From a virus, in the IMG/VR virus record IMGVR_UViG_3300030116_004105, positions 62,074 to 95,981 of that record: a stretch of DNA of 33,908 nucleotides; one strand, 5' to 3'. Positions 1,466 to 32,141 of the stretch are shown here, piece after piece. The translations under genes were made by a program, and so were the position numbers. The notes under the pieces are model-generated. The model was given only the letters and a program-made list of their open reading frames with translations, searched no databases and was not told the DNA's origin. Each line of letters begins with the position of its first letter. Within the stretch, counting starts at the first letter, position 1.

Positions 1466-1513
1466 GATCTAGCTGTGTTGTTGATTACTTGTTGTTGTTG
1501 CTAGGGATAGATT

Positions 1514-1537
1514 GAGGGGCTTTATGCCCCTCTTTCT
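1514..1537 (+). terminator. Intrinsic terminator at the convergent gene junction
   Basis: A perfect 7-bp GC-rich stem GAGGGGC / GCCCCTC with a TTTAT loop is followed by TTTCTATT on the + strand, 49 bases after the UDG stop. It lies in the only intergenic space between the + operon and the - strand late block (1466-1538). On the - strand the stem is not followed by a T run, so it should mainly stop the rightward transcript. Confidence 0.8.
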
Positions 1538-1538
1538 A

Positions 1539-1985: not shown

Positions 1986-2121
1986 TGTCTATAATTATAT
2001 AAATTTGTATTAATCCTAAAAATAATTGCACTTCATAATACGGTGCATACTCTTCTGGTTGGAAATGTCTTACGCCAACTATTAATCCTTTTGACCATCC
2101 TATACCGAATTCAAACTTCAT
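1957..2121 (-). CDS. 54-residue ORF coupled to the giant gene by TAATG
   Basis: The stop of the 4898-residue gene and the start of this ORF share a base (TAATG), a classic coupling arrangement repeated elsewhere in this operon. The product starts MKFEFGIGWSKGLIVGVRHF, continues with an acidic PEEYAPYYE segment, a hydrophobic stretch LFLGLIQIYIII, and an Asn/Thr-rich tail, ending at TGA 1957-1959. Without it the 135 bases between the neighbouring genes would be unexplained. The pattern FGxGWxxG...YxEVQLFLGLIQ resembles small uncharacterised phage proteins I have seen, but I know no function. The 3' end overlaps the start of the 148-residue gene, suggesting a second coupled re-initiation. Moderate confidence because the gene is short. 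Confidence 0.7.
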   Translation of the reverse strand: MKFEFGIGWSKGLIVGVRHFQPEEYAPYYEVQLFLGLIQIYIIIDNGNTNNNIN

Positions 2122-5100
2122 TAATCTTTTTCTATTTGCGTTTCCATTAGGTAATCTATAGATCTTATTGAGTTACCAAATGGAACTACCTTCATCCATT
2201 TTTTATTAAGTGGATCTCTTCTACTTTCTTCATAGCCTTCTTTATCATCTATGTAATCATATGTAGCTGTTGCTGCATTGGAGAAATCTTTAACTGTTTT
2301 TAATACTGGTGCTGGATTTCTTAATACTTCCATAGCTGTACTAGGACGCGCATAAAACTCACCATCCTGTTCTAATCTATAGAATGTATTTTGAAGCAGT
2401 CTATATACTTTTTCAGTTTCTTTATCATCTTCATCTGCGCCTAGTGCTCTTAATAAATTTCCTGCTGCCATTACAGCAAGATAAAATTTAAGTCCTGCCA
2501 TATTCTTACGCATATTAGCAAATGTAAGATCATCTTTTATGTCACCTCTCATAGACTCCTCAGATACTCCATACCCTAGAGTCAATGTATTTAATATACT
2601 TTTACCAAACATTTCTAATGATCCTTTTAGACCTACTTTACCAAAAGACATATATCTACCTTCTGTATATCTTCCAAGTTGCGCGTTATAAACTTTTCCA
2701 CCCCATCTAGTGTTTAAACCTTCAAAGGCCCATGTTCTAAACTGTGTACCTATTCTACCCCACACTGATTTTTTAATTAGTAAAGCTGAATTAGGATCAT
2801 AGTTACCATGATTTACTTTATTCATTTCAATAGTTGCATCTCTAAACTCTGTAAATTTATTTTGAGTTTCTGCATCTACCTTCATTGTCCAGTCACTTTC
2901 CAGGCTTTTAAATTCCTCTTTGATACTACCTTCATTATCATATATATCCCACAAAGTATTACCTTTATCATCTATTTTTGTATTTAACATTTTAGCCACC
3001 ATTGGAGCTATTTGATTCATATACTCTGTGCTAGTTTGTAGGAAGAATGGATTCAGTTTAGACATATATTTATATCTTGTCTTTTTAGTTTTACCGTAAT
3101 ACGTATCTAACTGTTCAAATAATATCCCATATTTTTCTGCTAGCTTTTCTGCTTTATTTGCTGTTCCAGGCACATACTCTTTAAACATTAAAGCATATGC
3201 TTTTGTCAATTGTTCTGTAGAATAATCTTCATTACCTGCAGCGTGTACAAAGTTAGCTATTGTACCAAATGATAAGTTGTTTACACCGGACATTAAGTTC
3301 CAACCTAAACCTTTTAGCTGTGTATACTCTACAAGTCTTTCTAGAGGTTTTCTATAGCTTATAGGTTTTTTGTTTAGTTCTTTTAATCTTTCATCTAGTT
3401 TTGCTTTTTCTTCAGCATAAACACTATCATCTATTTTATTTGTTTTGTAGTCTGCTTGCAGTTGTTCAAACTCTTGTTTAACTTCTGCTACTTTTTGAGA
3501 TAATACAATACCTCTTTCTACAGTATCTTTAGATACTCCATATAAATTAGAATCTATTGCATACTGCACAGCCTCTTGTGTATTTTTTAAACCACCAACT
3601 TTACTATCTAATTTAAGTGCTCTGCTAATTTTTCTCATCATAGGAGATCCTGTAGAATCTAACTGAATCTCTTTTGCTTCTCTTATCACTCTTTGTAATA
3701 ATAAAATTTTATCTTCTACTTGTGATTTGTAGTCATAGCTTACAGACATAGCTGCAAACATTTTCATAACTTTTTCTATATCATAAGATTTTTCATCTGC
3801 TTTACCTCTTAGCATTCTAACCGGTATATTTTTTTCTATCTCTCCAGTATCAGGGTTTCTTACACCCTTAGTTGCAACCTGTGGATTAAGAGTTACATCT
3901 TGATCTAAGTTCCATAAATAGTCTGCTATTTTACTACCTTTCATTGCGCTAAATATTGCACTAGTTCCTTCATTTTGTATTTGTTCTACAAATCCACGTT
4001 TAGCAAATGGGAAGAAGTTCTCCGGTAGTGTAGCTACTAATCCTTCAGGTAGTAAAGTTATTAGATCCTTCATAGTGCTAGTATAGAAGTCATAGAACTT
4101 TTTAAGTTGAGGATCCTTTTGTATAGCAGTGTATCTGCTATCATAATACTTTGGTTTATTTAAAGGAACATTTACTAAAGCTTTATATCCTTCATTTCTA
4201 GCAAGTTTTTTACCTCCACCATATCTAGAGTTTAAATGATACAAAGGACTATATCTTTCTTTGTATCTAAGTTGTCTACTATTTATAGTAGCTCTAAACT
4301 CTTCTATGTTACCAGCATTATTAGATTCCTCTAATTCTATCTCCATCATTCTCTGATCCTCAGCTGCCTTATACTTTTTATATTTTTGTAAAGCTTCTTT
4401 TATTAATGCATCTCTTCTTGCTGTATCTCCTATTTGTTGATCTAAATACTCCATGTATTCTTGCTTAGATTTGAACGGTGAATTAAATGAAGCTTCTTCA
4501 TCAATAAACCATCTTATATCAATTGCAAACTCAATAGAGTCAAGATCTCTCATTAGTTGTACAGTTGCAATATTTTTTGCACTATCTCTAGTTGCCTTAG
4601 CCATTTTAGCACGATACTTACCAAGTATTTTACCTCTAGCTTGATTGTATGCAGAACTGTATGGTGATATAAAGTATCCTGTTAATTTACCTTTATCATC
4701 CTTTTGGAAGAATAAGTTAGGATCTTTTTTGAACGCAGCACTATTCTGAATATCAGCCATTGCTGATTCTATTTCTAAGAACCTAGATTGTATGTCTGTA
4801 TCTGCATTTCTATTTGCTGCTTTTAAATATTTATCTAGCATTCTAACAACTGGATGACTAAATTTACTAAGGTCTAAGAATCTAGATTTTCTATAAGTCT
4901 CTCCCTCTATATTCTTAAGCTGTTCAGCTGTTACTGCTTCTGTTTCAGGTAGCTCTTGATTAATTACTTCTACAGTCATATCAATAAGCTTATCTAACAG
5001 ATTTACTTTTATATTACTAGCTAAAGAACTTTGGCTTTTTAATAATTCGTTAAATCTATCTCCTACCTTTCTTTCAGTTTTATCTAAATATTTACTAGTA

Positions 5101-8100
5101 ACTTTAGTGTAGTCATACATGTCCACAATATTCAACGCTTCTTTTATCTCTACCTCAGTAGGATTTTTAGAGTTTGCAATACCATTGGCCCATCCTAGTT
5201 GTAGTGACATAATAGAATCAAGATTTCCATATGTCTTTTTACTTTTTAATGTGCTTATCTGGTCTCTATATACATTAAGACGCTCTTGCATTTTTTTACC
5301 TGCTGCAGTTTTGATTACCTTATCTGTAAGCTTACCTTTTAATTTATCAGCACGCTCTTGATATACTGCTAAGACTTCATCTATAACTCTACCTGTTTTA
5401 TTTTTATTTGCAGCCATGTAATTTAAAGAGAACAGTTGACTATCTCTATAATCTTGTAGGGCCTTATCAAACTCTTCTTGTGTATACTCACCATTTTTCA
5501 TTCTTGTATAACTAGCTAGCACGTGACGTGGCTCAGATATATATGGGTTAAGTGGGAATACACCAGCTTCTTGTTCAGCTTTCTGTGCAGTTTTTGTTGC
5601 TTGTTTTCTAGCTGGAGCTTCTACAATGAATGACATTATACTATCTACAGATTCTGCAAGTAGACTGTCTTTATTTACAGCTACACCTAAATCTACACCA
5701 AGAACTTTTAAGAAGTCTTTTATTAATTGTTTAAATCTCTCAAACAAATTCTTTTTACCTGGTACAGTATTTAGGAAAGATTGCACTTCTTTCTGTGTCA
5801 TTGTATTTGTAACAAACTCTTGAGGATTACTAAATGCATACTGTAGTGTTTTATATTGTACAGTGCCTTCTTCTATCTCCCCTTTCTTAACAGCTGCTTT
5901 AAATGCACTATTAGCAGCATTCGTTAAATAACTTACCTTTCTACTAAACTCACTACTACTATCTGCTACCTCTGAACTTAAGAATCCATGTAGCATTTCA
6001 TGTAGTATAGTTTCCTGTAGCTTCTCTGGGTATCGAGTTATTGTTTCTCTATTTATAACTACCGCCCCATCTCTATACAATCCGTATGCAGAATTACCAT
6101 CTCTATCAACTAAGCCGTCCTCTATAAGTATTTCTTTTATAGCGCTACCTTTTGTATCTATATTCTTAGATAGCATAGTAGCTAATCTACTTAAAGATTT
6201 ACTTTGTGTATCTTGCATTACTGCACTTAACAGTTCTTTTACACCTGCTCTACCAGGAGTAGCATACTTCATAGATATAGGATCTAATCCGTATACACTT
6301 ATATCAGTAGGAGCTTTTGTAGTTGATACTTGTGGTACCCCTACATTTGTCTTCACTGCTTTAGGTATATTATTCTGCGGTAGGATACTCTCTTCTGTTA
6401 TCATTCTACCGTCTTTTAAGAACTTAGTTACTCCTGAGTATTCACTAACTTTTGAATAACCTTGTCCTGCAGTTTGATAACCTTTCTTACCTATTCTTCT
6501 AAATACAACATTACCATCTTTATTTACTCCTATCTTTTGGAACAACTCTAATCCGGTAGGTCTTTCTGCAGCTATAACTTCTATATATAGTAAGTTTCCG
6601 TCATCTCTTTGATAAACAATTCTATTAAACTTATTGCTATTATCCGGTTGCGGTAGTTCAAACTCATAGTTTATAGTTTTACCATCAAACTGTATTGTAC
6701 GCATCGGGCTTACAGATATATCTTGCAACTCTTTTCTAGATAAAGCAACTGCTCTATTAGGATTGTGCTGTAGATATTCTACCATAAGCTCTAGTATATT
6801 TATAGACTCTGGAGATGTCGGTGAATTTAGATTTTTTTGTTCTTCACGCAATGCATCATAGAAACCTATTTGATCTAGATATGCAGTATTCATAAACTTA
6901 GAGAAGTTGGTAGACGATTGTACACCGCCTGTTAGGTATGTGTACTTAACAATATCTTCAAACAATTCTCTATGTCCTACTTCTGCTGATTCATACAATG
7001 ACACAAAGTCTACAGCCATCTGGTCTGCTATGTCATCTTGTTTTGAATTTACGTATGTAATACTAGCAGGTACACCTTTATTTGGTTTGTTCAGTAGTAA
7101 TCTACTAATAAATAGATTTCTTCTACCAAAATCTGATTCCTGTACCTTTTCTATTCTTGCTGCTATGTTCTCATCCGGGTCAGATAGTAATCTATATCTC
7201 GCCGCTGTTGCATCTTCATTAAAGGTTTTCTCAAAGGCTCTTACAAAACTTTTATTTAGTAATGAGTTAAACAGATCCTCTCTTAATTTTTGGCTAACGT
7301 TTTCATTACCTGTAAACTGTTGCCAAAGATTAATCATTCGCTGATGTGATCTATTACTAAATGGTAATATTTCAGATAGACTTGTATATACTTTAGCGAA
7401 TTGTTTGTACATTTCTTCTAGTTGTCCATCTGCTAAATTTTCTACACCACCAATAGTTGATAATTGTTTTTCAAATACAGCCTCCATATTATCAATACGT
7501 TTCTGTGCTTCAAAGATTGTACTACCAATACCTTTAGTTCTTGGTGATACTATACCTCTTTGTAGTTTACGTACAGGGTCAGATGAATTCTGTAGTTGTT
7601 TGAATCCTGCTAGTATAGCCATTTGAGTTTTATAGTAACTAGGGTTTGGTTTGTTTCTAGTTCTAAGCTGATCTAAAAACTCTTGAGAGCTAAATGTCAT
7701 AAACTCTCCATCCGTAGTTGATCTATATTGATCTAAGTTTGCAGTGTAATCTGCTTCAGGGTCTAGTCCTGCTTTCTGCGCAAGTATAATCATAGACGCA
7801 TTGAATGCATCATTTCTAATTTGCTCTTCAGTTCTGAATCCTCCTTCTATTTGTGCAGAGTAGTAGTCAACCTGTTTTGTATATTCTTCTATAGCTTCTT
7901 GGCGTAAGAAGTATACTAGTTGCTCTCCGTGTATAGAATCTGCAGAGGCCTGATCTTTATACATTAGTGTAAATAGCGCTACATCGATTGTAGCATTATT
8001 TATACCTGCTCTACCCAGCACGGCTTCATTAGCATTATCCACTGCAGCATTTTGTACACTACGTATGTTATCTGATGCAGATCTTATAGCATCTGTTAAA

Positions 8101-11100
8101 GCATTTGTAGTATAAGACTTACCTCTGTAAGAAGATATATTAGTTAGTTTTAAATTTTTATTTTCTACACCACCTTTAAAGAATATAAATGGTATTGGCT
8201 CTTGAGTTCTACTAGATACATTTATTGTTATGTTTTTACCTTGTAGTGCGGCGTGCATAACAGCAGCTAGAGATGCAGGCCCAATAAGTTGCTTACCTGT
8301 TCTTTGGCTGATTGTGTTATCTATATTTGTAGTTACAAAAGATGGGTCATTTATTTCTGACTCTTTACCTAGTATACCATCTACTACATCTGCAGCTTGT
8401 TTAAGATCGTTGTTATCTAATTTACTTGTTGCTTTTCTTGTAGTTTCGTCAAATATTATCTTTTTAAATAACTCATAGTACTCATCCTGCAGCTTTTGTA
8501 GTTCAGATAAATCAGACTTTATTTTGACTGTACCATCTTTATTTACCTCAAACTGCTTGAAGTATGTGTATGCTGTATCCCAGTCAAAGTCACTACCCAT
8601 CTGGTCTATAACTTGATCAGGCACAATTACACTAGATGTAGAAGTTTTAGGTAAAAATCCTACAATCTCTACAGGAACTACTGATGGTTTACCTTGTCCA
8701 GGTATACGATAGAGTATTCTTTCTCTAAGCTCTTGTGGCAGTATATCTGTACGTAGGTATCTTATTCCATTTGTTATTGTTGTATATTTTTTAGAACTAA
8801 GATCAACACTTTTACCGTTTGAATCTGTGAATACCGGGCTAATAAATATTTGTGCAGGTAATACTTTACCATCTTTACCTTTTCTTACTCCCTGTAAACC
8901 TACAGACTCATCAAATGCATTTTCTGTTTCTATAAGTGTAATTCCATTTTTAATTTTATCAAGCTCTCCACTAGATACAAACTGATCCCATCCAAATCCA
9001 CCTCTAGCTTCAAAGCCTGCAGACGACGCTTGTACAAGTGACTCTCCAGGTATTTTAATTTTTATTATTGCTTTATTAACTAGAGATAGTACTAAAGAAT
9101 CTATATTTTTTCTAGCATGGTTAAATATAAGTGGTGATTTAAATACACGTTCTACTGCACCTGATACATCTTTTAGTGCTAACTCTGATATATCTTTATC
9201 AGTCCACTTACGTGCTATTGCTTCTTCTTTAAGCATCTTAGCTAGTGTGGTAGGATTAGGTACGTATGCGCTACCATCAGGACTTACTTTTATACCTAAC
9301 TTATCAAACAATCCTTTTGCACCAAGTTGCATAAACTTTTTATGTAACTCTTCTTTTTGGTCTCGTAGATCACTGTATGATTCTCCAGTTGTAGATAAAG
9401 TTTTACCTAGCATATCATCAAATGCTAAAACATCTAATTGAGAAGAATATGCATTCTCACCAGTATCAGTTCCTTTTTCTTGCTGTATACCTAAACCAGA
9501 TCTACTAATGGACCGTCTTCCTCTTTCCATCTCTGCTGTTACTTCAGGTAAAGATCTTACTTTACCGTTTGCATCATAGATATTAATTGGATTTACTGCT
9601 CCTGTTTTATCAGAGGTCATATGTCCTAACCTATCTATACCAGTATTCTCCATTGCTACACGGATGTTATCTAATCCGTATCCTGTAGTTTCTTCAGGCC
9701 ATAGGTATCTAATATGTGACTTTCTAAATAGTTTATTGTTACTATCTTGATCTACTCTTATATCGTTTTGTACAAATACAGGCTTATCTGCCATCATTAT
9801 TTTTTTGTACTTGTTTATCTCTTCTTTAGTTAGTGCTTCATTAAGTTTAAAAAAGTTTCTTACATTGTCTGGGTCATTCTTAGCTGCATTGTAAGCAGAT
9901 AATATTTTATCACTTATGTCTTTTGGTAGTTTACCTGCAGATAGTTTAGATTCTACCATCTCAGCTATTGTACCATACTCTTGAGCATCTGTTCTTTCAA
10001 TACCATCTTTAACTGCGTCGTTTGCTGTAGCTATTGTTACACTTGGCATTGTGTATTGTGGCGTAGATGCAGGAGATATTAGATCTGCTTTACGTTTTTC
10101 ATAGTTGTTAAGCGTTTCTTTTATATCATCTTTTAATGTAGCCCCAGGTTTCTTACTTCTTTTAAAAGCATGCGCGGGATCATTACCAAATAATTTTACT
10201 ACTTCATTATTAGATACTATATAGTTTAGGTTATAGTCAGCAATAGCTCCTGCTAATTTATCTGCTTTCGTTTTATAGAATGCAGATTGTTTTCCAAACT
10301 TCTTATTTATGTATCGTTTATCCAGGAATTTTTCTTCTATACCAAGCTCTTGTAATCTATCTATATGTGAGTTGATTTGGTTTATCACATTCTGTTTTAC
10401 CGTAGCACGTATAAACTCTATAGGGTCTTGTGCATCAAACACGTTCTCCTGATTAGGGTCATATGCATTTAGATAATTGAACATGTAGAAGTATTTTGCA
10501 CCCTCTTCATAAGGCCCTCTATTAACTCCTTCTATCTCTTTATAATTTTCAATTCTATTATACTCATCTATAGCGTAGTTATATATCTGTTCTAGGGCAG
10601 GATCTAGTATATCAGTTACCTTTCCATTCTCAGTTCTTATATTTTCTACTGTGTTTGTTAACCTAGGAGCTTTTATTATTGGTGCTATATCTTTATCCGC
10701 CGTAGTTATAGGGAAGAAGTATGCATCTTTATTTCCTTGATTAGCAAAAGCATTGAACAAAGTTATCTCTTGTAAAAATTTACCTTGTTCTTTTCTATTT
10801 GTAGCGTTTGCATTAAATATAGTTGAGTCAAACATAAGAAGCTCCAAGTACTTATCATCGTTTTGTAGGCCTTGTCCCCATACAGAGTTTTTATTGTAGC
10901 TTAGCGATAATAGATCATTTAGAAGATTCTTATCTTGTATATAATCAGCTAAAGTTCTACTCATACCAAAATGATTCTGGAATGGGTATATAAGATTACC
11001 TTTTGCATCTCTAAAACTATCTCCGTATAAAGCGCCTCCAAAGTCTACAGTAAGTTTTAATAATCCATAAGCAGCTCTTTCACGATTAGGGCCGTCGTAT

Positions 11101-14100
11101 GGATTAGTTACATGTATAAACCCACCTCTTTTTTCTGCCTCTAGAAGAGTATTGTATGCTTCTTCGTTTTCTTTTGTTTCCTCTATGCTTTGTTTATCTG
11201 TAGATATTTTTAACAGCTGTTGTTCTGCTAGTCCTCCATTTCTTAATCTAAATGAATTGAATAAGAAAGACATCATACCTTGTCCTACTCCCCCGCTTGT
11301 AAGTTCAGGGTTAACATGTGTCTCCCATTTAGATTTTCTACCTAAGTAAGCAGATCTATCTTTAGCGTTTGCTTTTTTACTAGCTAAAAATCTAAGTCCT
11401 TCTACAGGTACATCCATACCCATATCCCCTAAGTATTTTTTAACTACATCTACAAACTCATTGCTTCTTAGCTGGTTAGCTTGTTGGTATTTTTTATACT
11501 CTTTTAAATAATTGTTATATAACTTCTCTCTTTCTTTTTGATTTATTATTGTTTCTGGTATACCATCTAGAGTTATAGTTTTTACTAGCTTTGAGCTTTG
11601 TAGATTTCTAAACCACTTATTCTTTATATTAATAGTGGTGTTATATCTATCTACTAGTTGCATTTCTACATTACGTCCTAACTGTTGAGGATTTACTTTT
11701 AAATGTACAAAGTCAAGTCTTGTACCTGACATTGCCACTACAAACTGTCGACGTAATGTTTCTGATCCTCTGTCTAGCTCTTCTGCTATTTTTCCAAATA
11801 TAGGATTACTAGACTCCTCTTCTCTTGCTAATAATGCAGCTCTCTGATCTTTAAATGTACCAGGCACAGCACTTAGTGTAGCTTTTATTGTATCATAACT
11901 TTCTTGATACGGTATTGCTTTTCTAAAGTTTTTACCTAACCACGTTGTTTCGTTTTTAGTTGCTCTAGATAGTAATAGTTTTATACTAGAAGATGCTGTC
12001 CTTTTCTTATTTGTTTTATAGAACTCAAAATCATAAATATCTTTTACAAAGTCTTCCTGGGTAAAACCATCAACTTCTAAAGACTCTGCAAATATTTGAT
12101 CTATTTCTGCATCGGTAAGATCCTTTGATCTAAACCCTTGTTTTTGTGGTAGTATATCTAACTTTGCTAATGATTCTAACATTATACCTTCCACGGTAAC
12201 CTTACCAGACTTAGCGTCGTAGTTATCTACTAAATGTTTTAGAGCTTTCTTTCTTCTAGTATTTATTTTTATACCATCTGCTTCTTTATTTAGCTCATTT
12301 TTTATAAACTGAGATATTTGTTTAAAGTTAGCTTTGGTAATATTTTGTGAGTATTGTGCAAATATAGAACCTATGGCTTCTAACTGCATCGGTAGACTAA
12401 TTATCTTAGTATCAAAGAATCTTTCTCCTAACTCTTCACGCATAGCCCGCGCAATGGCATCATCTTTATAACCATCTAGTTGGTTTTCATTAGCCTGAGT
12501 TGATTCGTATATAGGTGATGCAAAAGATAATCCTTCTGCAGCCTGGTTTGCATTCTCACTTTCGTTTACTACTGCTCCCTGTTCTGCAAATGATGTATCT
12601 ACAATTACTAATGGCTGAGTCATGTATGTATACTCTGTCTCGCCTGCACTATTAATTAATGTATTCTTACCGTTTATATCAGTTTTTAAGAACTGTCCTT
12701 TAAATGCATTGTATGATGAGTGTGTACTTACATCTTCTACAACACCTTCTAAGTTCAGAATCACATCCTTAAACTCTTCTTTTTTATTTATGTTTTGTTT
12801 TTGTACACTAACAAGTTTTCCTTGTAGTAATTGAGCTGCTTCTTTTGCAGCGCCTTCTTCTCTAATATCTTTTATCTCTCGTATGTCATTATCTGTTACG
12901 AAAGAAGGATTGTTTTTAAAGAACAAAGGATCGTTTGTGTACATTACTCTTTGGTCTACATTTATTATCTGTAGCATTCCTTGTACCTGGCCATCTTCTG
13001 AAGCAGCCAGTTCCGGTGTATGTACTAATACAGCGCCTTGCTCAAAGTTATCTTCAACTTCTTTATTCCAGCTGTAGAATGTCTTTCTAGCAAATGTGTA
13101 TCTATTTACAAACTTATGTAGTCCTGCTGAATCTCCTTGTCTACCAAACTGTATTCCTGTTTGTTCTGTTATAGTATCAAACGTTTCTGTCTGGTTGTTC
13201 TGGAATGATGTTGCAGCACCTATTATAGTGTTTGCTTGATCTGCAGTTACATTATCCACAAATAATATTGTAGGGAATATCTTACCATTTGGTGTTGGTA
13301 AGTTAGCAACTACTCTACCATTAGTGTAGTTAGCATCTTTAAGATCTATTACAGTCTCTTCTTTTAGGGCAAACTCTCCTATGAATATTTCACCACCATC
13401 TACAATACCTAGTTTTATATTATCTACATCCGGTAATGCTTGGTCTATAGGTTTATTTATTTTTTGTAGTTTATTACCCACTAGTAATAAGTTACCTGCA
13501 CTGTCTTCTTGATATAAAGGTAAAACCTTACCATGGCCCTTGAATACTACAGTTGTTTTAACTTCATTATTTTGGTCAATGCTTCTAGCTAATGCTCTAC
13601 GTATGTTTCTAGCATTCTGTAGCTCTTCTTCTAGTCTACCAGGGGCCGTGTTTATCAGTCTTCCATTACTATCTCTAGCTTCTATCCAATCTGTAGTGTG
13701 TAGTGATGCTGATTTTATACCGTCTTGGTATACAGCTACAGCTAGATTATCTACGTCTTCATTAGGCATAGATATTAACTCTTCTTTTGTTAGAGCTACA
13801 TTATCACTATTAACTAGTCTTAGTACAACTTCACTATTAGGCATCATTGCTTTACTAGATTCTATAAGTTTAGATTCTTCAGTCTTAGTGTTAGATGTAC
13901 TTACTTTTTCTTTTACACCCTCTATTTCTATTTCTCTGTATTGCACAGATAAGAATGCAAGAGAAGAGGATGAGTTTGTTTGTCTTCCTGTTAGTGTTTG
14001 ATCATCAATCTCAAAGTATGGATTAAATGATTTAGGAGCTACTCTACTATTTTCTAAGTTTGTATCTCCAGTAGATTCTATGTCTTCTCCACCATTGTTT

Positions 14101-16817
14101 ACTTCTCCATCAAATACTGGAGATGAAAAGCTTGTAGATGTAACATTAACCTTATTTGGGCTGACAGATTGTTTTTCACGTAGAAGGGTAGAACGTTGTT
14201 TGTCATCTACTAAAGATCTTATTTCTCCTTTAGGGTCTACATATAACTCTTCCTCTTTTAGAAATTTTCGAGCTGCGAGTTCAATTTTCTCTGCTGTATT
14301 TTCAGTTGTTAAATTATAAATTGCTTTTATTATATCATTGAAAAACATTTTTTTAGCAGGATATGGACCTAAATCTCCTATTAGAGCTGATGTAGAACCC
14401 AAAAACTCTTTTTCTACGGTAGCTAATGTGCCAATTTGTTTAGCAATAAACTCAAAGTTACCTGGTTTAGCGGCGCCCATAGCATCACGATTAATTAACT
14501 TAGGTAATTTACCTTTTAGGTAATCCTCTATTTCAGTTGTAGGCATTATCTGATTTGTACTGGCAGATTCTTTTTTACCTATAGGTGATGTAGCAGTAAG
14601 TGGTGCTCCACCGGCCGCTTGTTGTGCTGTAGTTGCCTGTGTAGTTTGTGCAGGCTGACTATTTCTAGCTTTCTTTTTTGCAGCTTGTGTTTGTTGTTTT
14701 TTCTGAGCTTGTTGTTTAGCTTTCTTAGACGCTGCTCTCTTTGCTTGTTCTGCTTTCTCTTGAGCAATTGTTTGTTCAGCTTCTTGTTTCAATAACTCAG
14801 GATTACTTACTAGCTCTTGGTATCTAAGTGCATTGTTTTTACGACGTATTCTACCAGCTTCTAATAGACTTTCAGTTAGTTCTATCTTTGCATCTATATC
14901 ACCGGCGCTTTCTAGCTTAGATACTCTATCAAGAGTTTCATCTACAGTAATCTCATTAGCTGAAGCATAGTCTTTTACTTTTAACTCTAGAGTTTCTTCT
15001 CTTTGTTTTAGTCTTGTTTTTGCATCCTCTAAGTTTTTTACTTCTCCTGCTAACGTTTCATTAGTTTCTCTTGTTAGAGGTTTAGCTTGACTTCTAAGTT
15101 CTTGTATACTATTCTCAAAACCTTGCACAGTTCTTTGTAAAGCAGCTCTCTTGAATATATTATTACGTATCTCATGCAGATCTTTATCTTCTACATTGTT
15201 TTCAATATCTTCAAACAGCTTTTGTTTCTGTGCTTCTAGATCTGTAAGATTAGATTTATATTTTTCTATATCTTTTAGAGCATAGTATTCATTTAACTTA
15301 TTATTTACTAGTACAAATGCTTCCGCTTGACTACCTCTAAGCGGGTTAAGAAGTTCGTTATTTATAACGTCTTCTATATACTTTGCATCTGCTATGTATT
15401 CATCAGCTAGTTCTTTATAGTTAGATTCAAAACCTAGATTCTTTGCTTCTTCTTCTGTAGCATTTCTATAGGTTTCTAATACGTCCATAAAGTTTTGGGA
15501 TGTACCTTTTAGAGCATTCATTACTGCGTGCTCTCTAACTTGTTTTTTAGTTAGATCTTTTATTCTTTCTCCTGAAGCCCCTAAAGCTAACTCTGATTGC
15601 TTAACTTGTTCTAATGCATCTATATTATCTTTTTTACCAAATATAGACACACCTGTACCTACTACACCACCACCTAAAGCTCCTAAAAGCCCTTCAGTTA
15701 TACCTTGGTAACTTGTTGCATGCTCTACAAACTTTTCAAATCCTGGTCTATTATCAGGTACAACTTTACCAAGCTCTAGATCTGTTTTGTATTGAGCTTC
15801 TGTCTCTTGATACCCGGTGGTTACTTCTTCTAACCCTTCTGTAGTGGCTTCTATACCCAGCCTTTTTAGGCCGTCAAACATTCCTTGATTCTTTGTAGCC
15901 TCTTTTAACTTACCTAGTCTTCTAGTATGAGATACCCCTCTAAATAAATTAGCTTGTGATATAGATTGCCATAGTATATTTACTCTACCGCCTTGTATAA
16001 TCTCAGCTGCTTGTTTAGATAGTGTTCTTCTAGCTTCTTCTGCTGCCTGTCCAGGCTCTAATCCATTTGCAATGTATTTATTAGTAAGATCTTCTAGGTT
16101 TTCTTCTATATGTCTAGCTGCAGATACTGCATGCTCTCCATAGTTTAGTAGTGTTGCTGATCCTAAAGCGCTACCTGCATTCAAAGCAGATGCAGCGGCT
16201 GAACCAGATATAGATTTACCTGTTAAGTTTGCAGCTGTACCAAAGATAGCTTTACCTGCAATATTAGCGCCTTTAAATAAAGCACCTGCAGGTAAGAAAT
16301 ATCCAATAGATCTTAGAACTTGATCTGTATTTTGAAACCACCAATCTGAAGAACCTATAGTTGGTTCTTGTCCGGCTGTATATATAGGAAAGTCTTCTCT
16401 TACAGATTCTTCTAATCCTCGTAACCCTTTTGTAAGAAAGTTATCATAGTCTCTGTCTGCACCTTGTAGTGCTGCTATGTGGTTTTCTACATCTAATAAA
16501 TATGCAAAAGGTTCTACAGCAGCTACAGCTGCTCCTACAGTGCCTCTAACTAAAACATTACCTATCTTATTTAATGTCCCTTGAGCTTCGGACATCTCTT
16601 TCATTATGTTCATGCCTGGAATATATCTTACTCCTAGGCTTTGCTGCTCTTCTACTTCCTCTGAAGATAACAGACCTACATACCCTTCGGGTAAACTAGG
16701 TTGATCTAATTTTATTTCTGGTAGATTTAAGTTTAATGGTGGTAATTCAAATAGACTATCGTATTGAGATGCAGCTACTGACTTTCGCTTTTTATCTCCG
16801 TTAGTGTGTTGAGACAT
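2121..16817 (-). CDS. Giant virion protein with RNA polymerase and zincin motifs (crAss-like vRNAP)
   Basis: A 4898-residue protein, probably packed in the virion and ejected to transcribe early phage genes. From the N-terminus: Gly/Ala-rich hydrophobic segments (about 88-110, 169-226 and 373-393) that could interact with membranes; coiled-coil regions (about 400-680); a Lys/Gln/Ala/Thr-rich linker (675-751); and a polymerase core. The core has RIPGQG (from residue 2704) followed 39 residues later by GSDFDWD, matching the spacing and form of the beta' 'R-P..NADFDGD' double-psi-barrel motif and of crAss-like polymerases such as phi14:2 gp66. A conserved-looking AVDNANEAVLG block follows near 2925. 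A zinc-protease motif HEMLH is at 3606-3610. The C-terminal 700 residues contain a QFRTWAFEG block (about 4690) and a hydrophobic segment (about 4772-4793), like phage polyvalent proteins. No cysteine was found by eye. The polymerase call is from motifs; start and frame are clear. Confidence 0.85.
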   Translation of the reverse strand: MSQHTNGDKKRKSVAASQYDSLFELPPLNLNLPEIKLDQPSLPEGYVGLLSSEEVEEQQSLGVRYIPGMNIMKEMSEAQGTLNKIGNVLVRGTVGAAVAAVEPFAYLLDVENHIAALQGADRDYDNFLTKGLRGLEESVREDFPIYTAGQEPTIGSSDWWFQNTDQVLRSIGYFLPAGALFKGANIAGKAIFGTAANLTGKSISGSAAASALNAGSALGSATLLNYGEHAVSAARHIEENLEDLTNKYIANGLEPGQAAEEARRTLSKQAAEIIQGGRVNILWQSISQANLFRGVSHTRRLGKLKEATKNQGMFDGLKRLGIEATTEGLEEVTTGYQETEAQYKTDLELGKVVPDNRPGFEKFVEHATSYQGITEGLLGALGGGVVGTGVSIFGKKDNIDALEQVKQSELALGASGERIKDLTKKQVREHAVMNALKGTSQNFMDVLETYRNATEEEAKNLGFESNYKELADEYIADAKYIEDVINNELLNPLRGSQAEAFVLVNNKLNEYYALKDIEKYKSNLTDLEAQKQKLFEDIENNVEDKDLHEIRNNIFKRAALQRTVQGFENSIQELRSQAKPLTRETNETLAGEVKNLEDAKTRLKQREETLELKVKDYASANEITVDETLDRVSKLESAGDIDAKIELTESLLEAGRIRRKNNALRYQELVSNPELLKQEAEQTIAQEKAEQAKRAASKKAKQQAQKKQQTQAAKKKARNSQPAQTTQATTAQQAAGGAPLTATSPIGKKESASTNQIMPTTEIEDYLKGKLPKLINRDAMGAAKPGNFEFIAKQIGTLATVEKEFLGSTSALIGDLGPYPAKKMFFNDIIKAIYNLTTENTAEKIELAARKFLKEEELYVDPKGEIRSLVDDKQRSTLLREKQSVSPNKVNVTSTSFSSPVFDGEVNNGGEDIESTGDTNLENSRVAPKSFNPYFEIDDQTLTGRQTNSSSSLAFLSVQYREIEIEGVKEKVSTSNTKTEESKLIESSKAMMPNSEVVLRLVNSDNVALTKEELISMPNEDVDNLAVAVYQDGIKSASLHTTDWIEARDSNGRLINTAPGRLEEELQNARNIRRALARSIDQNNEVKTTVVFKGHGKVLPLYQEDSAGNLLLVGNKLQKINKPIDQALPDVDNIKLGIVDGGEIFIGEFALKEETVIDLKDANYTNGRVVANLPTPNGKIFPTILFVDNVTADQANTIIGAATSFQNNQTETFDTITEQTGIQFGRQGDSAGLHKFVNRYTFARKTFYSWNKEVEDNFEQGAVLVHTPELAASEDGQVQGMLQIINVDQRVMYTNDPLFFKNNPSFVTDNDIREIKDIREEGAAKEAAQLLQGKLVSVQKQNINKKEEFKDVILNLEGVVEDVSTHSSYNAFKGQFLKTDINGKNTLINSAGETEYTYMTQPLVIVDTSFAEQGAVVNESENANQAAEGLSFASPIYESTQANENQLDGYKDDAIARAMREELGERFFDTKIISLPMQLEAIGSIFAQYSQNITKANFKQISQFIKNELNKEADGIKINTRRKKALKHLVDNYDAKSGKVTVEGIMLESLAKLDILPQKQGFRSKDLTDAEIDQIFAESLEVDGFTQEDFVKDIYDFEFYKTNKKRTASSSIKLLLSRATKNETTWLGKNFRKAIPYQESYDTIKATLSAVPGTFKDQRAALLAREEESSNPIFGKIAEELDRGSETLRRQFVVAMSGTRLDFVHLKVNPQQLGRNVEMQLVDRYNTTINIKNKWFRNLQSSKLVKTITLDGIPETIINQKEREKLYNNYLKEYKKYQQANQLRSNEFVDVVKKYLGDMGMDVPVEGLRFLASKKANAKDRSAYLGRKSKWETHVNPELTSGGVGQGMMSFLFNSFRLRNGGLAEQQLLKISTDKQSIEETKENEEAYNTLLEAEKRGGFIHVTNPYDGPNRERAAYGLLKLTVDFGGALYGDSFRDAKGNLIYPFQNHFGMSRTLADYIQDKNLLNDLLSLSYNKNSVWGQGLQNDDKYLELLMFDSTIFNANATNRKEQGKFLQEITLFNAFANQGNKDAYFFPITTADKDIAPIIKAPRLTNTVENIRTENGKVTDILDPALEQIYNYAIDEYNRIENYKEIEGVNRGPYEEGAKYFYMFNYLNAYDPNQENVFDAQDPIEFIRATVKQNVINQINSHIDRLQELGIEEKFLDKRYINKKFGKQSAFYKTKADKLAGAIADYNLNYIVSNNEVVKLFGNDPAHAFKRSKKPGATLKDDIKETLNNYEKRKADLISPASTPQYTMPSVTIATANDAVKDGIERTDAQEYGTIAEMVESKLSAGKLPKDISDKILSAYNAAKNDPDNVRNFFKLNEALTKEEINKYKKIMMADKPVFVQNDIRVDQDSNNKLFRKSHIRYLWPEETTGYGLDNIRVAMENTGIDRLGHMTSDKTGAVNPINIYDANGKVRSLPEVTAEMERGRRSISRSGLGIQQEKGTDTGENAYSSQLDVLAFDDMLGKTLSTTGESYSDLRDQKEELHKKFMQLGAKGLFDKLGIKVSPDGSAYVPNPTTLAKMLKEEAIARKWTDKDISELALKDVSGAVERVFKSPLIFNHARKNIDSLVLSLVNKAIIKIKIPGESLVQASSAGFEARGGFGWDQFVSSGELDKIKNGITLIETENAFDESVGLQGVRKGKDGKVLPAQIFISPVFTDSNGKSVDLSSKKYTTITNGIRYLRTDILPQELRERILYRIPGQGKPSVVPVEIVGFLPKTSTSSVIVPDQVIDQMGSDFDWDTAYTYFKQFEVNKDGTVKIKSDLSELQKLQDEYYELFKKIIFDETTRKATSKLDNNDLKQAADVVDGILGKESEINDPSFVTTNIDNTISQRTGKQLIGPASLAAVMHAALQGKNITINVSSRTQEPIPFIFFKGGVENKNLKLTNISSYRGKSYTTNALTDAIRSASDNIRSVQNAAVDNANEAVLGRAGINNATIDVALFTLMYKDQASADSIHGEQLVYFLRQEAIEEYTKQVDYYSAQIEGGFRTEEQIRNDAFNASMIILAQKAGLDPEADYTANLDQYRSTTDGEFMTFSSQEFLDQLRTRNKPNPSYYKTQMAILAGFKQLQNSSDPVRKLQRGIVSPRTKGIGSTIFEAQKRIDNMEAVFEKQLSTIGGVENLADGQLEEMYKQFAKVYTSLSEILPFSNRSHQRMINLWQQFTGNENVSQKLREDLFNSLLNKSFVRAFEKTFNEDATAARYRLLSDPDENIAARIEKVQESDFGRRNLFISRLLLNKPNKGVPASITYVNSKQDDIADQMAVDFVSLYESAEVGHRELFEDIVKYTYLTGGVQSSTNFSKFMNTAYLDQIGFYDALREEQKNLNSPTSPESINILELMVEYLQHNPNRAVALSRKELQDISVSPMRTIQFDGKTINYEFELPQPDNSNKFNRIVYQRDDGNLLYIEVIAAERPTGLELFQKIGVNKDGNVVFRRIGKKGYQTAGQGYSKVSEYSGVTKFLKDGRMITEESILPQNNIPKAVKTNVGVPQVSTTKAPTDISVYGLDPISMKYATPGRAGVKELLSAVMQDTQSKSLSRLATMLSKNIDTKGSAIKEILIEDGLVDRDGNSAYGLYRDGAVVINRETITRYPEKLQETILHEMLHGFLSSEVADSSSEFSRKVSYLTNAANSAFKAAVKKGEIEEGTVQYKTLQYAFSNPQEFVTNTMTQKEVQSFLNTVPGKKNLFERFKQLIKDFLKVLGVDLGVAVNKDSLLAESVDSIMSFIVEAPARKQATKTAQKAEQEAGVFPLNPYISEPRHVLASYTRMKNGEYTQEEFDKALQDYRDSQLFSLNYMAANKNKTGRVIDEVLAVYQERADKLKGKLTDKVIKTAAGKKMQERLNVYRDQISTLKSKKTYGNLDSIMSLQLGWANGIANSKNPTEVEIKEALNIVDMYDYTKVTSKYLDKTERKVGDRFNELLKSQSSLASNIKVNLLDKLIDMTVEVINQELPETEAVTAEQLKNIEGETYRKSRFLDLSKFSHPVVRMLDKYLKAANRNADTDIQSRFLEIESAMADIQNSAAFKKDPNLFFQKDDKGKLTGYFISPYSSAYNQARGKILGKYRAKMAKATRDSAKNIATVQLMRDLDSIEFAIDIRWFIDEEASFNSPFKSKQEYMEYLDQQIGDTARRDALIKEALQKYKKYKAAEDQRMMEIELEESNNAGNIEEFRATINSRQLRYKERYSPLYHLNSRYGGGKKLARNEGYKALVNVPLNKPKYYDSRYTAIQKDPQLKKFYDFYTSTMKDLITLLPEGLVATLPENFFPFAKRGFVEQIQNEGTSAIFSAMKGSKIADYLWNLDQDVTLNPQVATKGVRNPDTGEIEKNIPVRMLRGKADEKSYDIEKVMKMFAAMSVSYDYKSQVEDKILLLQRVIREAKEIQLDSTGSPMMRKISRALKLDSKVGGLKNTQEAVQYAIDSNLYGVSKDTVERGIVLSQKVAEVKQEFEQLQADYKTNKIDDSVYAEEKAKLDERLKELNKKPISYRKPLERLVEYTQLKGLGWNLMSGVNNLSFGTIANFVHAAGNEDYSTEQLTKAYALMFKEYVPGTANKAEKLAEKYGILFEQLDTYYGKTKKTRYKYMSKLNPFFLQTSTEYMNQIAPMVAKMLNTKIDDKGNTLWDIYDNEGSIKEEFKSLESDWTMKVDAETQNKFTEFRDATIEMNKVNHGNYDPNSALLIKKSVWGRIGTQFRTWAFEGLNTRWGGKVYNAQLGRYTEGRYMSFGKVGLKGSLEMFGKSILNTLTLGYGVSEESMRGDIKDDLTFANMRKNMAGLKFYLAVMAAGNLLRALGADEDDKETEKVYRLLQNTFYRLEQDGEFYARPSTAMEVLRNPAPVLKTVKDFSNAATATYDYIDDKEGYEESRRDPLNKKWMKVVPFGNSIRSIDYLMETQIEKD
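5985..6002 (-). other. Zincin motif HEMLHG (residues 3606-3611)
   Basis: The segment ETILHEMLHGFLSS forms the typical helix of an HExxH zinc metallopeptidase: His3606 and His3610 as zinc ligands, Glu3607 as general base. It follows a beta-rich stretch (GAVVINRET) as in zincin folds. A third zinc ligand cannot be assigned by eye; FSNPQEFVTN downstream (Glu in a helix) is a candidate for a gluzincin/MPTase-like third ligand. Confidence 0.7.
8577..8591 (-). other. Polymerase catalytic motif DFDWD (residues 2743-2747)
   Basis: Codes for Asp2743-Phe-Asp2745-Trp-Asp2747 inside GSDFDWDTAYTY. In multisubunit RNA polymerase beta' and in QDE-1-like and crAss-like single-chain polymerases, the three Asp of DxDxD bind the catalytic Mg. 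All three are kept. The fourth position is Trp instead of the Gly of cellular enzymes or the small aliphatic residue I recall for crAss-like proteins. Confidence 0.8.
14565..14795 (-). other. Low-complexity Lys/Gln/Ala/Thr linker in the giant protein (residues 675-751)
   Basis: Residues 675-751 begin as a charged coiled coil (EQAKRAASKKAKQQAQ), turn into a basic AKKKA run and then a neutral TTQATTAQQAAGGAP stretch. This looks like a disordered hinge between the N-terminal membrane-like/coiled-coil part and the polymerase-bearing part, and is a plausible place for proteolytic processing (inference). Confidence 0.6.
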
Positions 16818-16823
16818 ATTTAT

Positions 16824-18656
16824 TTATTGTTTAAGTTTTTCGTCTAGATTTCTTATTAACTCTGTTAAAGTTTTTACATTTGTGAGCTGTTCATCTGTAA
16901 GTGGGGCCACTAGGTTTCCATTTGTTTTGTTTACTATAACAATAGAGTGAGTTCCATCTTCATTCATTCTTGCTCCTAGAACATTATTTGATAACACATC
17001 TGCTAAATTAGGATCTTTTTCTGCTAATTGTTTTGTGTAGTTTTCAAATGTTTTTCCAGAAACTGTCTGCCCTTTAAACATTAATCTAGAAGCTTCTATC
17101 ATTGCTGGAGTTCCATGTATTGCATTTAATCCTGAATTAACTCCTAACACAGAAGTTGTAGGAAGTGTGCCTTCAAAAATTTTAGTGTCTTTACCATCTT
17201 TAAAAGAACCCATAACTTTTGTAAAAGTTTGTCCTGTTGCAGTATCATAGTAAGGTCTAGTAGATATAGCATCTATATTCATGTCCTGCACATTATCAAA
17301 TGTTTTATTACTAGCATCTTCCCATTTATTACCACTCTTTACTTGATCTATATTTAGTAAACTTTGATAATTTTCAGTAGCATTTAAAGCGTTTATAGCA
17401 GCCTTTTGTTTTGGGGTTGTAGTTTTGTCTGCAAACAGTGCGTACTGAGGAATTATTGTTGCATTTTTAAAATATTCCTCAGCAGCTTTTTCAAACTTGT
17501 AATGAGGAGTTTCTTTTGTTAGTTCTCGTCGTAATCCTGTAATAGGTTTAAATCCTTCTCCTGCTGTAAGCATAGAAATATTCTCTGGTACTTTACTATT
17601 TACTAAAGTTTCTACAGAATTTTTTTCTATAGTTTCTAAATCTTTTTTAGATAGTCCTGCATTTCTTGTAATATTATCTATCATACTAGCTTTACTAACT
17701 CTCTCAGCAAGATCCATATTTACTTTGCTATTTTCAAAGTTTTGAATTATATTTTGAGCTTTGCCTGTACCCAATATATTTTCAGTGTCTACATTAAATA
17801 TAGATCCTGTAAATGTAAATTGATTATCAGCTGAAGCTCCTGCAAGAGGGTCTGCAGTTGTTTTACCTAGAGATACATCACCTCTTCGTTCAAGTTGAGC
17901 AGCTATATTATTTATTTTACCATCTATATACTCTTGCCCAGTTACACCTAGTGCAGCTGCTTTATCTCTTATGTATCCAGTTAAGCTTTCACTTTCATTT
18001 ATATGATTGTATAGAGTACTTCTTATATCATCTGCAGACACACCTGTCTTAGTAGTTTGTATTGTTTGAGTTCCTTGATCATCTATTCTATCTACAAATG
18101 TCTCAGACTTTAACTTACCTGCTACTGTATATAACTCATCCATGAGTTTCTTTTCATCTAATCTAGAGTAGTCAAGCATAGGAATGTAATCAGTACCTAA
18201 CTCTGTTTGCCCATATTGTGCATCAGACATATTTAAATAATAAGGACGTAAGTCTGGATCTGTTACTTTCTGTTGTAGTGTATTTATATAGTCTTCTCTA
18301 ACCTTATAGTTATTAGTTTCTGTTAAAAGAGTTCTATCATTTTGTATATTAAATGCTTCTTCATTTAATATCCCTGATAACCCAGATAAGTTACTTCCGT
18401 TTTGTGTTATATAATCTCCAACTCTTTGATTAAAAGCATCAAACTTTTGATCGTAAACATTACGTGCTTTAGGTAAAAGATTTTGTCTATATAATCTATT
18501 TACATTGTCTTGTAATTGTGTATTTCTTTGTTGCGCACGATCAGCTAACTGTCCTGCTAATAACATTTCTCTAAATGGTATAGGAGTATATTGGTAGTCT
18601 ATTGTTGGTACTCTACCTAAAAATCCTCTTATACCTTTTCCAAAATCTATTGCCAT
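16824..18656 (-). CDS. Internal virion (cargo) protein next to vRNAP
   Basis: A 610-residue protein directly upstream of the giant polymerase gene, 6 bases apart. It has no signal peptide or strong membrane segment. The N-terminus is a short conserved-looking stretch (FGKGIRGFLGRVPTIDYQYTPIPF) followed by long Gln/Asn/Leu-rich helices (about 30-120), then mixed alpha/beta sequence and a helical C-terminus (LKTLTELIRNLDEKLKQ type). By position it corresponds to the cargo proteins that lie between the tail muzzle and the vRNAP genes in crAss-like phages, which fill the tail and are ejected. I see no cysteine, as in the two other cargo proteins. The cargo role rests on gene order, not on sequence homology I can verify. 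ATG at 18656 follows an A-rich leader. Confidence 0.75.
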   Translation of the reverse strand: MAIDFGKGIRGFLGRVPTIDYQYTPIPFREMLLAGQLADRAQQRNTQLQDNVNRLYRQNLLPKARNVYDQKFDAFNQRVGDYITQNGSNLSGLSGILNEEAFNIQNDRTLLTETNNYKVREDYINTLQQKVTDPDLRPYYLNMSDAQYGQTELGTDYIPMLDYSRLDEKKLMDELYTVAGKLKSETFVDRIDDQGTQTIQTTKTGVSADDIRSTLYNHINESESLTGYIRDKAAALGVTGQEYIDGKINNIAAQLERRGDVSLGKTTADPLAGASADNQFTFTGSIFNVDTENILGTGKAQNIIQNFENSKVNMDLAERVSKASMIDNITRNAGLSKKDLETIEKNSVETLVNSKVPENISMLTAGEGFKPITGLRRELTKETPHYKFEKAAEEYFKNATIIPQYALFADKTTTPKQKAAINALNATENYQSLLNIDQVKSGNKWEDASNKTFDNVQDMNIDAISTRPYYDTATGQTFTKVMGSFKDGKDTKIFEGTLPTTSVLGVNSGLNAIHGTPAMIEASRLMFKGQTVSGKTFENYTKQLAEKDPNLADVLSNNVLGARMNEDGTHSIVIVNKTNGNLVAPLTDEQLTNVKTLTELIRNLDEKLKQ

Positions 18657-18673
18657 AATTTTATTTTATTTAA
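18657..18673 (-). promoter_or_regulatory. A-rich translation leader before the 610-residue cargo gene
   Basis: The same 16-mer TTAAATAAAATAAAAT as at 25202-25217 sits just before the ATG at 18656 and overlaps the TAA stop of the preceding gene. Its exact repetition at two late genes suggests a shared translation-initiation element; a promoter function is not shown. Confidence 0.4.
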
Positions 18674-20057
18674 CTCCGTATTTACCTCCGTATGCTACAG
18701 GAAAAATTCTATTTAAAAGATCTCTTTGAAGTCCTTGTTGAGATAAACTTGTTGCGGTACCAAGTATTTGTGATAAACCTTGACTAAATGCAGGTGCAGG
18801 ATTATTTTGCAGTGCAAATTGATCAGCCATCATTTCCCTTTGCATATTACCTTCCCGTGCTGCTGTTCTTTGTCCTATATTAAACAGATCTGTTTGTCTA
18901 TCACTTTGTGCTTGCATTTGTCCTACTTGAGATAGGAAGTTGGCAGCATTGCTTTGAGACTGATTAAGTCCTGCTTGGAAGTTAGCTCTTAATCCTGTGC
19001 CTGAAACTCCTGACCCTTCTAAACCTGCTCTTAAAGTTGCTAAAGATCTATCTTGTTGCCCTAAATAAGTTTTAATTAAAGGATTAAAGTCTTGGTAGTC
19101 TTGCATTTCTGGTACAATTGGATCATATTCTAACTCAGGCGCTTTTGCAAACAACCCTCTACCAATATTAAATAATCCAGGTAAGAACTGTGCAGCTGCT
19201 AATCCTGGAGACAATCCTGCCCCTTGAGCTAAAGCTGTAAAAGCAGCCCCTAACTGAGCCTCTTTAGGCTCTTGATCTATATTATTTTCTCTTTTAAATT
19301 CTTCTTGATCATCGAATAGATCTTTTACATCTTCCATGATTCTAGGACGCATTCTTTCTGCTGTATTTCTATCAGATGCTTCACCACCCATAGCCATAGT
19401 ATTTATCTCATCTAGTTCATTACCAAACTTAGCAGCCATGTCAGCATATGTAGCGCCTCTCATACCTCCTACTTTTAGTTTATCAGAGAATACATAAGAA
19501 GGGCCGTCACCTTTCATCTTAATACCAATACCACCTTCTGCATGCGATGGTCCACCAAGCATGTACATATTAGCACCCTTGTATTGTTTAGCTGTACCAC
19601 CGTTATACATTTTATTTACAGCTATATCACCTATAACAACTTCTCCACCTTCAGCTTCATAGTCTACATCCATAGATTTAGATTTAGATTTACCACCATA
19701 CTTTCTATCATCTATACCGCTATCCATATACTGCTGCATAAACATATCCATGTCTACCGCCGGACCAGTGTATTGCTTCCCAACCAAATTGAGATCTCTA
19801 ATCTCACCTTCAGTGTAAGGCTTTATTTTATTTCTTAGCTGTCTATTTAGCTGTAGGCGCTTCATCTCATCAAACATAAAACTAGGAAACATTGCATCTG
19901 CTAGCGCAGTACTATCTCTAGTAATAGCTTTTTGATAAGTTTCTAAATCATATGCAGGGTTACCTTCCATAAAATAGTTTGGCCCTTTGTACTGTAAATA
20001 GTCTGGTTGTTTTACAGGTGGATCCCCTCCGTTATCGTATTTATTTATTTTTTTCAT
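18666..20057 (-). CDS. Internal virion (cargo) protein with EGGE / SHAEGGI motifs
   Basis: I choose ATG at 20057 (463 residues, MKKINKYDNGG) over an in-frame TTG at 20066. Conserved-looking blocks are EAEGGEVVIGD (about 134-144), GGPSHAEGGI (about 168-177) and VFSDKLKV (about 189-196). I recall this set from structural proteins of crAss-like and other Bacteroidota phages, where its function is not known. A Gly/Ala/Leu-rich hydrophobic stretch (about 265-305) could be a membrane-active segment. The C-terminal half is rich in Gln/Asn/Ala (SQSNAANFLSQVGQMQAQSD) and probably helical. It sits between the large tail protein and the second cargo gene, so ejection with the DNA is likely (inference). 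No cysteine found by eye. Confidence 0.75.
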   Translation of the reverse strand: MKKINKYDNGGDPPVKQPDYLQYKGPNYFMEGNPAYDLETYQKAITRDSTALADAMFPSFMFDEMKRLQLNRQLRNKIKPYTEGEIRDLNLVGKQYTGPAVDMDMFMQQYMDSGIDDRKYGGKSKSKSMDVDYEAEGGEVVIGDIAVNKMYNGGTAKQYKGANMYMLGGPSHAEGGIGIKMKGDGPSYVFSDKLKVGGMRGATYADMAAKFGNELDEINTMAMGGEASDRNTAERMRPRIMEDVKDLFDDQEEFKRENNIDQEPKEAQLGAAFTALAQGAGLSPGLAAAQFLPGLFNIGRGLFAKAPELEYDPIVPEMQDYQDFNPLIKTYLGQQDRSLATLRAGLEGSGVSGTGLRANFQAGLNQSQSNAANFLSQVGQMQAQSDRQTDLFNIGQRTAAREGNMQREMMADQFALQNNPAPAFSQGLSQILGTATSLSQQGLQRDLLNRIFPVAYGGKYGVK

Positions 20058-20081
20058 AATTAGCAAATATATTCTATTTTA

Positions 20082-31503: not shown

Positions 31504-31512
31504 AATTTATAT

Positions 31513-31848: not shown

Positions 31849-31854
31849 AAGATA

Positions 31855-32139: not shown

Positions 32140-32141
32140 CT

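Follow-up and report, generated by a model that had tools for sequence, protein, structure and literature searches.

The N4-type virion RNA polymerase (vRNAP; Schitoviridae gp50 family) is a giant protein that is packaged in the virion, ejected and free of cysteine (Cys). The absence of Cys and the passage through the tail and the oxidizing periplasm without disulfides have been published (PMC3715699, PMC3915230, PMC2784036), and two of these papers (PMC3915230 and PMC2784036) cite Kazmierczak 2002. The enzyme is a single-subunit T7-like polymerase, made as one chain and without junction Cys. In the Crassvirales phages phi14:2 and crAss001, three RNA-polymerase-associated proteins, called A, B and C here, are separate chains (g067, g066 and g065 in phi14:2; gp47, gp50 and gp49 in crAss001), and they were identified as virion proteins by mass spectrometry in both phages; phi14:2 g066 is the crystallized virion RNA polymerase (PDB 6vr4). 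Two smaller cargo proteins were detected along with A, B and C in crAss001 virions (PMC10172136), and the corresponding five proteins of phi14:2 are annotated as virion proteins. Here we analyzed a stretch of 33,908 nucleotides (the window; positions 62,074 to 95,981 of the 95,981-base virus record IMGVR_UViG_3300030116_004105 in IMG/VR), in which A, B and C appear to be fused into one 4898-residue protein without any Cys, and compared it with relatives that carry a single Cys at each facing end of the split proteins.

Modules and cysteine content of the window's cargo proteins

As judged by its muzzle protein, the window belongs to a Crassvirales genome. This 1399-residue protein (20082-24281, minus strand; Pfam PF25731, E 3e-166, and PF25729) adjoins the cargo genes, gave tblastn matches in 85 phage records and contains four Cys; it served as a non-ejected comparison. 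The 4898-residue cargo protein (2121-16817, minus strand, as are all cargo features below) is collinear with phi14:2 g067/g066/g065 and crAss001 gp47/gp50/gp49, and its homologies indicate a single-chain fusion of three virion RNA polymerase modules in the order A-B-C. Module B (residues 1486-3671; 5805-12362) matched the B profile at E 3e-132 and phi14:2 g066 by BLAST, and contains the two-barrel (DFDxD) polymerase motif DFDWD within GSDFDWD (residues 2743-2747; 8577-8591). The match to the C profile (E 3e-91; g065/gp49-like, residues 3544-4884; 2166-6188) follows that of B and overlaps it at the fused B-C junction. The 1,485 residues preceding module B, where g067/gp47 stands in relatives, were assigned to module A (residues ∼1-1485; 12363-16817; boundary approximate) by position and a weak BLAST match of residues 90-388 to g067 (E 0.09); no match to the A profile was obtained. 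Compared with the N4-type vRNAP, the window protein has a two-barrel polymerase fused to two further modules, C and a putative A. Compared with phi14:2 and crAss001, it has homologous modules B and C and the putative module A in the same order, but on one chain and without the Cys at each facing end (or the one internal Cys of crAss001 gp50).

The next two genes encode proteins of 610 residues (16824-18656) and 463 residues (18666-20057), placed by synteny only in the cargo-2 position (crAss001 gp46, phi14:2 g068) and the cargo-1 position (crAss001 gp45, phi14:2 g069), respectively; sequence searches found no homologs of either. The structure model of the 610-residue protein was uninformative (predicted local distance difference test score, pLDDT, of 37). 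Open reading frames (ORFs) of relatives in the cargo-2 position have 3 Cys in 26,606 residues. By analogy with the virion location of the crAss001 and phi14:2 proteins, the window's three proteins are probably packaged and ejected.

An earlier note on this DNA had reported that these three consecutive cargo proteins appear to lack Cys and that neighboring tail proteins have about 13 in 2,914 residues. Program counts agreed: 0 Cys in 5,971 residues for the three cargo proteins and exactly 13 in 2,914 for the five named tail neighbors. If the 463-residue protein starts at the TTG at 20066, it has 466 residues and still no Cys. The other proteins of the genome have 323 Cys in roughly 23,400 residues. 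With the neighbors' rate, the Poisson chance of 5,971 residues without Cys is 3e-12; with that of the remaining genome it is 2e-36. In-frame TGY (TGT/TGC) codons numbered 0 in the cargo frame vs. 60 predicted from positional base frequencies, and 20 vs. 59.5 in the tail frame; the remaining two reading frames of the cargo DNA contain 105 and 326 TGY. Since TGY is plentiful out of frame and missing in frame, the absence of Cys lies at the protein level. Base composition and codon bias as its cause were ruled out by the positional base-frequency test, and chance by the Poisson figures together with the Cys densities at junction ends and elsewhere given below. Cys-rich proteins occur in the same genome, one with 85 Cys in 3070 residues (G000:C1:12666-21878) and another with 45 Cys in 824 residues (8015-10489), a signal-like N-terminus and regular Cys spacing; both are in sharp contrast to the cargo.

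The suggestion in the same note that Cys depletion is a signature of ejected proteins was borne out in other phages. No Cys was found in N4 gp50/51/52 (4,294 residues; other N4 proteins 8.4 per 1000), the LUZ7 vRNAP and its two partners (4,079 residues), phiEco32 gp22-26 (2,796 residues), SP6 gp35-37 (2,487 residues) or P22 gp7/16/20 (1,309 residues), nor in T7 gp15/gp16/gp7.3, LUZ24 gp50-53 and P-SSP7 gp15/16; for T7 and P-SSP7 this applies to the large ejected proteins. Other proteins of N4, T7, P22, LUZ7 and SP6 have 7 to 9 Cys per 1000 residues. The only Cys of the Sf6 ejected set is gp11 C18, located in the N-terminal stretch that, by annotation, is cleaved off P22 gp7. The depletion is relaxed in one Crassvirales clade, where B has as many as 23 Cys, so that the lack of Cys marks ejected proteins strongly but not universally. 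Small gp14-like internal virion proteins have a single Cys at residue 2 in T7 (L255:12729-13319), epsilon15 (L260:11586-12128), phiV10, YeP5 and P-SSP7 (L353:10956-11558; the set includes the loci L262 and L263), and other members have none; T7 gp6.7 (L255:3865-4131) likewise has a single Cys at residue 2.

The absence of Cys had been taken to fit a disulfide-free passage through the tail and the oxidizing periplasm. That part is already in print for the N4-type vRNAP, and it is incomplete, as Crassvirales relatives with split cargo carry Cys flanking each junction. It could be argued that Cys was lost simply so that no disulfides form while crossing the tail and periplasm, with terminal Cys tolerated in harmless flexible tails; the published N4-type precedent and the zero counts in N4, LUZ7, P22, SP6, phiEco32 and others speak for this avoidance.

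Terminal cysteines of split cargo proteins

In phi14:2, the sole Cys of the A, B and C proteins are C1797 of g067 (the last residue), C3 and C2179 of g066 (2180 residues) and C3 of g065. In crAss001 they are C2339 of gp47 (2341 residues), C5, C1334 (internal) and C2404 of gp50 (2412 residues) and C5 of gp49. DAC15, p-crAssphage, crAss002 and Flavobacterium phage Fpv3 also fit the pattern. For a wider survey, 147 non-redundant loci were collected by three viral-contig scans; alignments were used for searching instead of the single crAss001 gp50 protein, which found two loci only. Modules and junction states were assigned by profile hidden Markov models built from 33 clear split sets.

At the A|B split (n = 48), a Cys was found at the N-terminus of B in 48/48 cases and within 15 residues of the C-terminus of A in 46/48, the other two lying 23 and 31 residues from the end. 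At the B|C split (n = 106), the C-terminal Cys of B was present in 105 cases, with one miss at 22 residues from the end, and the N-terminal Cys of C in all 106. The outer ends lacked Cys altogether (A N-terminus 0/41, C C-terminus 0/101). In the 45 complete split sets (250,005 residues), the Cys density is 66 per 1000 at the junction ends (178 Cys in 2,700 residues) and 0.06 per 1000 elsewhere (16 Cys in 247,305 residues); the figure for other ORFs of these loci is 4.0 per 1000. As a rule there are four Cys, at the C-terminus of A, both termini of B and the N-terminus of C, and exactly four were counted in 36 of the 45 sets. Tolerance in flexible tails predicts scattered Cys at all ends, whereas junction ends are occupied in ∼100% of cases and outer ends in 0/142. 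Cys thus appears, from the sequences, to be excluded from the cargo except where one programmed inter-protein bond is wanted, and the window has none because its cargo pieces are fused.

Apparent misses in crAss002 gp33 and in loci L085 and L089 were explained by errors in annotated or called starts. The annotated start of crAss002 gp33 (L251:15088-27825) is probably 32 codons early, the likely real start being MSCTPSN at codon 33. In a structure model of the C subunit of L192 (mean pLDDT 55), the tail bearing Cys7 lies outside any helix, which is weakly consistent with an end Cys in a terminal tail.

A cause at the DNA level was also considered, in which TGT/TGC near stop or start codons would help to couple translation of the genes or let the ribosome hop and so join their products. 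The A, B and C genes do abut or overlap in many loci. However, the end Cys are kept where the genes are distant or on opposite strands (crAss001 gp47 vs. gp50, DAC15 gp61 vs. gp63) and across B|C gaps of 359 to 6,170 nucleotides, and the position of the end-Cys codon shifts over several residues between loci. A start/stop-codon signal was rejected on the strength of the widely separated genes, and we regard this explanation as extremely improbable.

Fusions, moved splits and a second phage lineage

Fusion of the genes was accompanied by loss of the Cys at the fused junction. A-B fusions keep only the C-terminal Cys of B, B-C fusions keep only its N-terminal Cys, and A-B-C fusions without Cys were found in the window and in L118, L123, L124, L125, L154, L184, L208 and L241; some fusions in Cys-tolerant lineages have a few scattered internal Cys. 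No Cys was found at the new outer ends of fused chains (0/26 and 0/24), and 29 of 30 A-B fusions had none in a broadly drawn junction zone. A tree of the catalytic region implies at least 12 changes of the A-B state and at least 9 of the B-C state. Cys tracked the A-B state in every independent pair and the B-C state in 2.7 of 3 on average; taken alone, this tree test is modest.

The strongest test of the junction pattern is provided by two loci with moved splits, where A runs on into the first half of B as one protein and the break comes inside B. In L056 the break is at profile position 1224|1232 (...HCK / MSINC...), and in L150 at 1122|1126 (...NCD / MACQ...). In both, a Cys pair flanks the new break, and the former A-B junction is free of Cys. 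A further break in B is made by a group I intron (L040; Rfam, 85 bits) and lacks Cys, which makes it a natural negative control; it was therefore rejected as a counter-example. Two more candidates were set aside: L053/L244 is a frameshifted contig with two broken genes and was excluded, and L051 and L052 represent one virus, in one case with the break and in the other without it. The window's chain is fused and without junctions, not split into A, B and C with Cys at their facing ends. By its sequence it is to be seen as the fused, Cys-free counterpart of the putatively stitched cargo discussed below, not as a stitched member.

A similar arrangement was found in epsilon15. The single Cys of gp16 is C629 of 634, five residues from the C-terminus, and that of the next protein, gp17, is at residue 5; C5 is invariant in an eight-sequence alignment of gp17. 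The same pair is present in phiV10, SPN1S, Yersinia YeP5, Pseudomonas YA3 and Ab31, an Acinetobacter phage, Vibrio VP5, Pelagibacter Skadi-1 and HTVC035P, Stenotrophomonas BUCT708 and virus SI2. The eight-sequence alignment was too divergent for scanning and a three-sequence alignment worked; 36 further non-redundant metagenome and genome loci agree wherever both genes are readable. The upstream gp16-type protein varies from ∼390 to 1,360 residues and has one Cys throughout. No homology of gp16/gp17 to A, B or C was detected. Like the split cargo, gp16 and gp17 follow one another as internal virion proteins, the first bearing one Cys near its C-terminus and the second one near its N-terminus; unlike it, they have one link only, no polymerase and no fused form seen. 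By their position and by analogy with T7 and P22, they are presumably ejected.

The Cys pairs at two newly made breaks and the invariant C5 of gp17 are further points against simple avoidance, which we now consider quite improbable if taken alone. The junction pattern refutes it as the whole account, and it stays true as half of the explanation. Alternatively, the end Cys could tether A, B and C to one another in the assembled, working polymerase, by a disulfide or a metal site, instead of coupling them for threading. All three are polymerase-associated virion proteins, and a fused chain would do just as well as such a tether. However, a usual metal site would take more than one Cys from each side, a disulfide would be reduced in the host cytoplasm, and epsilon15 gp16/gp17 has the same head-to-tail pattern without a detected polymerase link. 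This role is unlikely.

Proposed coupling of ejected proteins by disulfides

Our proposal, held with good confidence, is a train of ejected proteins that is threaded through the tail in N-to-C direction, each protein being stitched to the next by a single disulfide. The bond itself, its pairing, its timing and its use in threading are what we infer from features read in the sequences, namely the absence of Cys, the module homology, the terminal Cys pairs, their loss on fusion, the pair at moved splits and the recurrence in an unrelated group. The virion would hold the cargo in store, and the proteins would later be passed through the tail into the host in an at least partly unfolded state. The purge of Cys would guard against stray disulfides, which could arise in the released virion or in the periplasm and would stand in the way of threading or refolding. 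A, B and C are separately made polypeptides in most Crassvirales, with one Cys in a short terminal tail at each facing end and none at the outer ends. After lysis, outside the reducing cytoplasm, disulfides would form between the C-terminus of A and the N-terminus of B and between the C-terminus of B and the N-terminus of C. The result would be a continuous N-to-C chain of ∼5,000 residues that exits in single file and in 1:1:1 stoichiometry; with no other Cys present, each end Cys would be left with its intended partner only. Reductants of the host cytoplasm would then separate A, B and C. In the window the chain would come from a single gene and need no clip, and it has no Cys.

Links from C-terminus to N-terminus match the requirement of a chain that is threaded N-terminus first. 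Cargo 1 of crAss001 was modeled N-terminus first, with its N-terminal part in the tail and its C-terminal part in the capsid, and partial unfolding of A, B and C on exit was inferred by the authors (PMC10172136). Structural disulfides occur elsewhere in the crAss001 virion: inter-protein disulfides are present in its tail hubs and rings (PMC10172136), as they are in the mature tail of Agrobacterium phage Milano (PMC10811340). Those bonds lock a static structure, whereas stitching bonds would couple mobile cargo head to tail.

Several points weigh against the stitching proposal. Bayfield et al. ran reduced and unreduced virions, and a cargo adduct is not reported in the accessible part of their work. 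Chemistry alone would also allow circularization of B or dimers of like chains, so that the pairing is our inference. Phages of anaerobic gut hosts keep the end Cys even though their environment may be poorly oxidizing. L111 has no end Cys and is possibly incomplete, and the clade with many internal Cys in B departs from the exclusion of Cys, with the end pair kept; its hosts may be anaerobes. Only 5 (A-B) and ∼3 (B-C) of the independent pairs lie on well-supported (starred) branches of the tree. Finally, fusion takes away the ends themselves, which makes the accompanying loss of the Cys pair partly trivial; the weight is therefore carried by the moved splits and by the lack of retained junction Cys.

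With epsilon15 included, it seems reasonably probable that single disulfides couple ejected proteins head to tail in at least two unrelated lineages of short-tailed phages. Separate proteins would exit as one N-to-C chain, other Cys would be purged so that only these links form, and gene fusion would be the covalent alternative.

Some neighboring features were also recorded. Cargo-1 proteins of relatives contain Cys pairs 8-9 residues apart (390/398, 369/378, 211/219 and 273/281), as in crAss001 gp45 (L008:26988-29516), phi14:2 g069 (L007:18984-20246) and DAC15 gp59 (L252:37020-39518); the window's cargo 1 is without any. In p-crAssphage gp47 (L250:3588-6161), which occupies the cargo-1 position, the sole Cys is the last residue but one (856 of 857) and may provide that lineage with a further link. 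Just past its cargo genes, p-crAssphage has two thioredoxin-like genes, gp39 and gp37 (L250:28978-30245), in the opposite orientation. Near each end of the window's genome record lies a copy of a 3.3-kb block of small lysis-type and secreted-protein genes (window 30647-33908 and G000:C1:5416-8747; 85.7% identity).

No report of the stitching pattern was found in the open-access literature searched, a set that leaves the Drobysheva 2021 polymerase structure paper outside, and the word cysteine is absent from the Crassvirales and ejection-protein literature examined. The Cys-free half is known for N4-type polymerases. How megadalton cargo passes a channel narrower than folded proteins, in which order it exits and how proportions are fixed are open questions in phage biology. 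If the proposal is true, terminal Cys pairs would single out the ejected proteins among those of the virion and show the order and direction of their exit, and a redox-reversible coupler would be added to the known mechanisms of protein delivery. With the signature, exit order and N-to-C direction can be tested directly in phages that are in culture and have published virion structures, and it offers a simple annotation rule for cargo in uncultured viruses.

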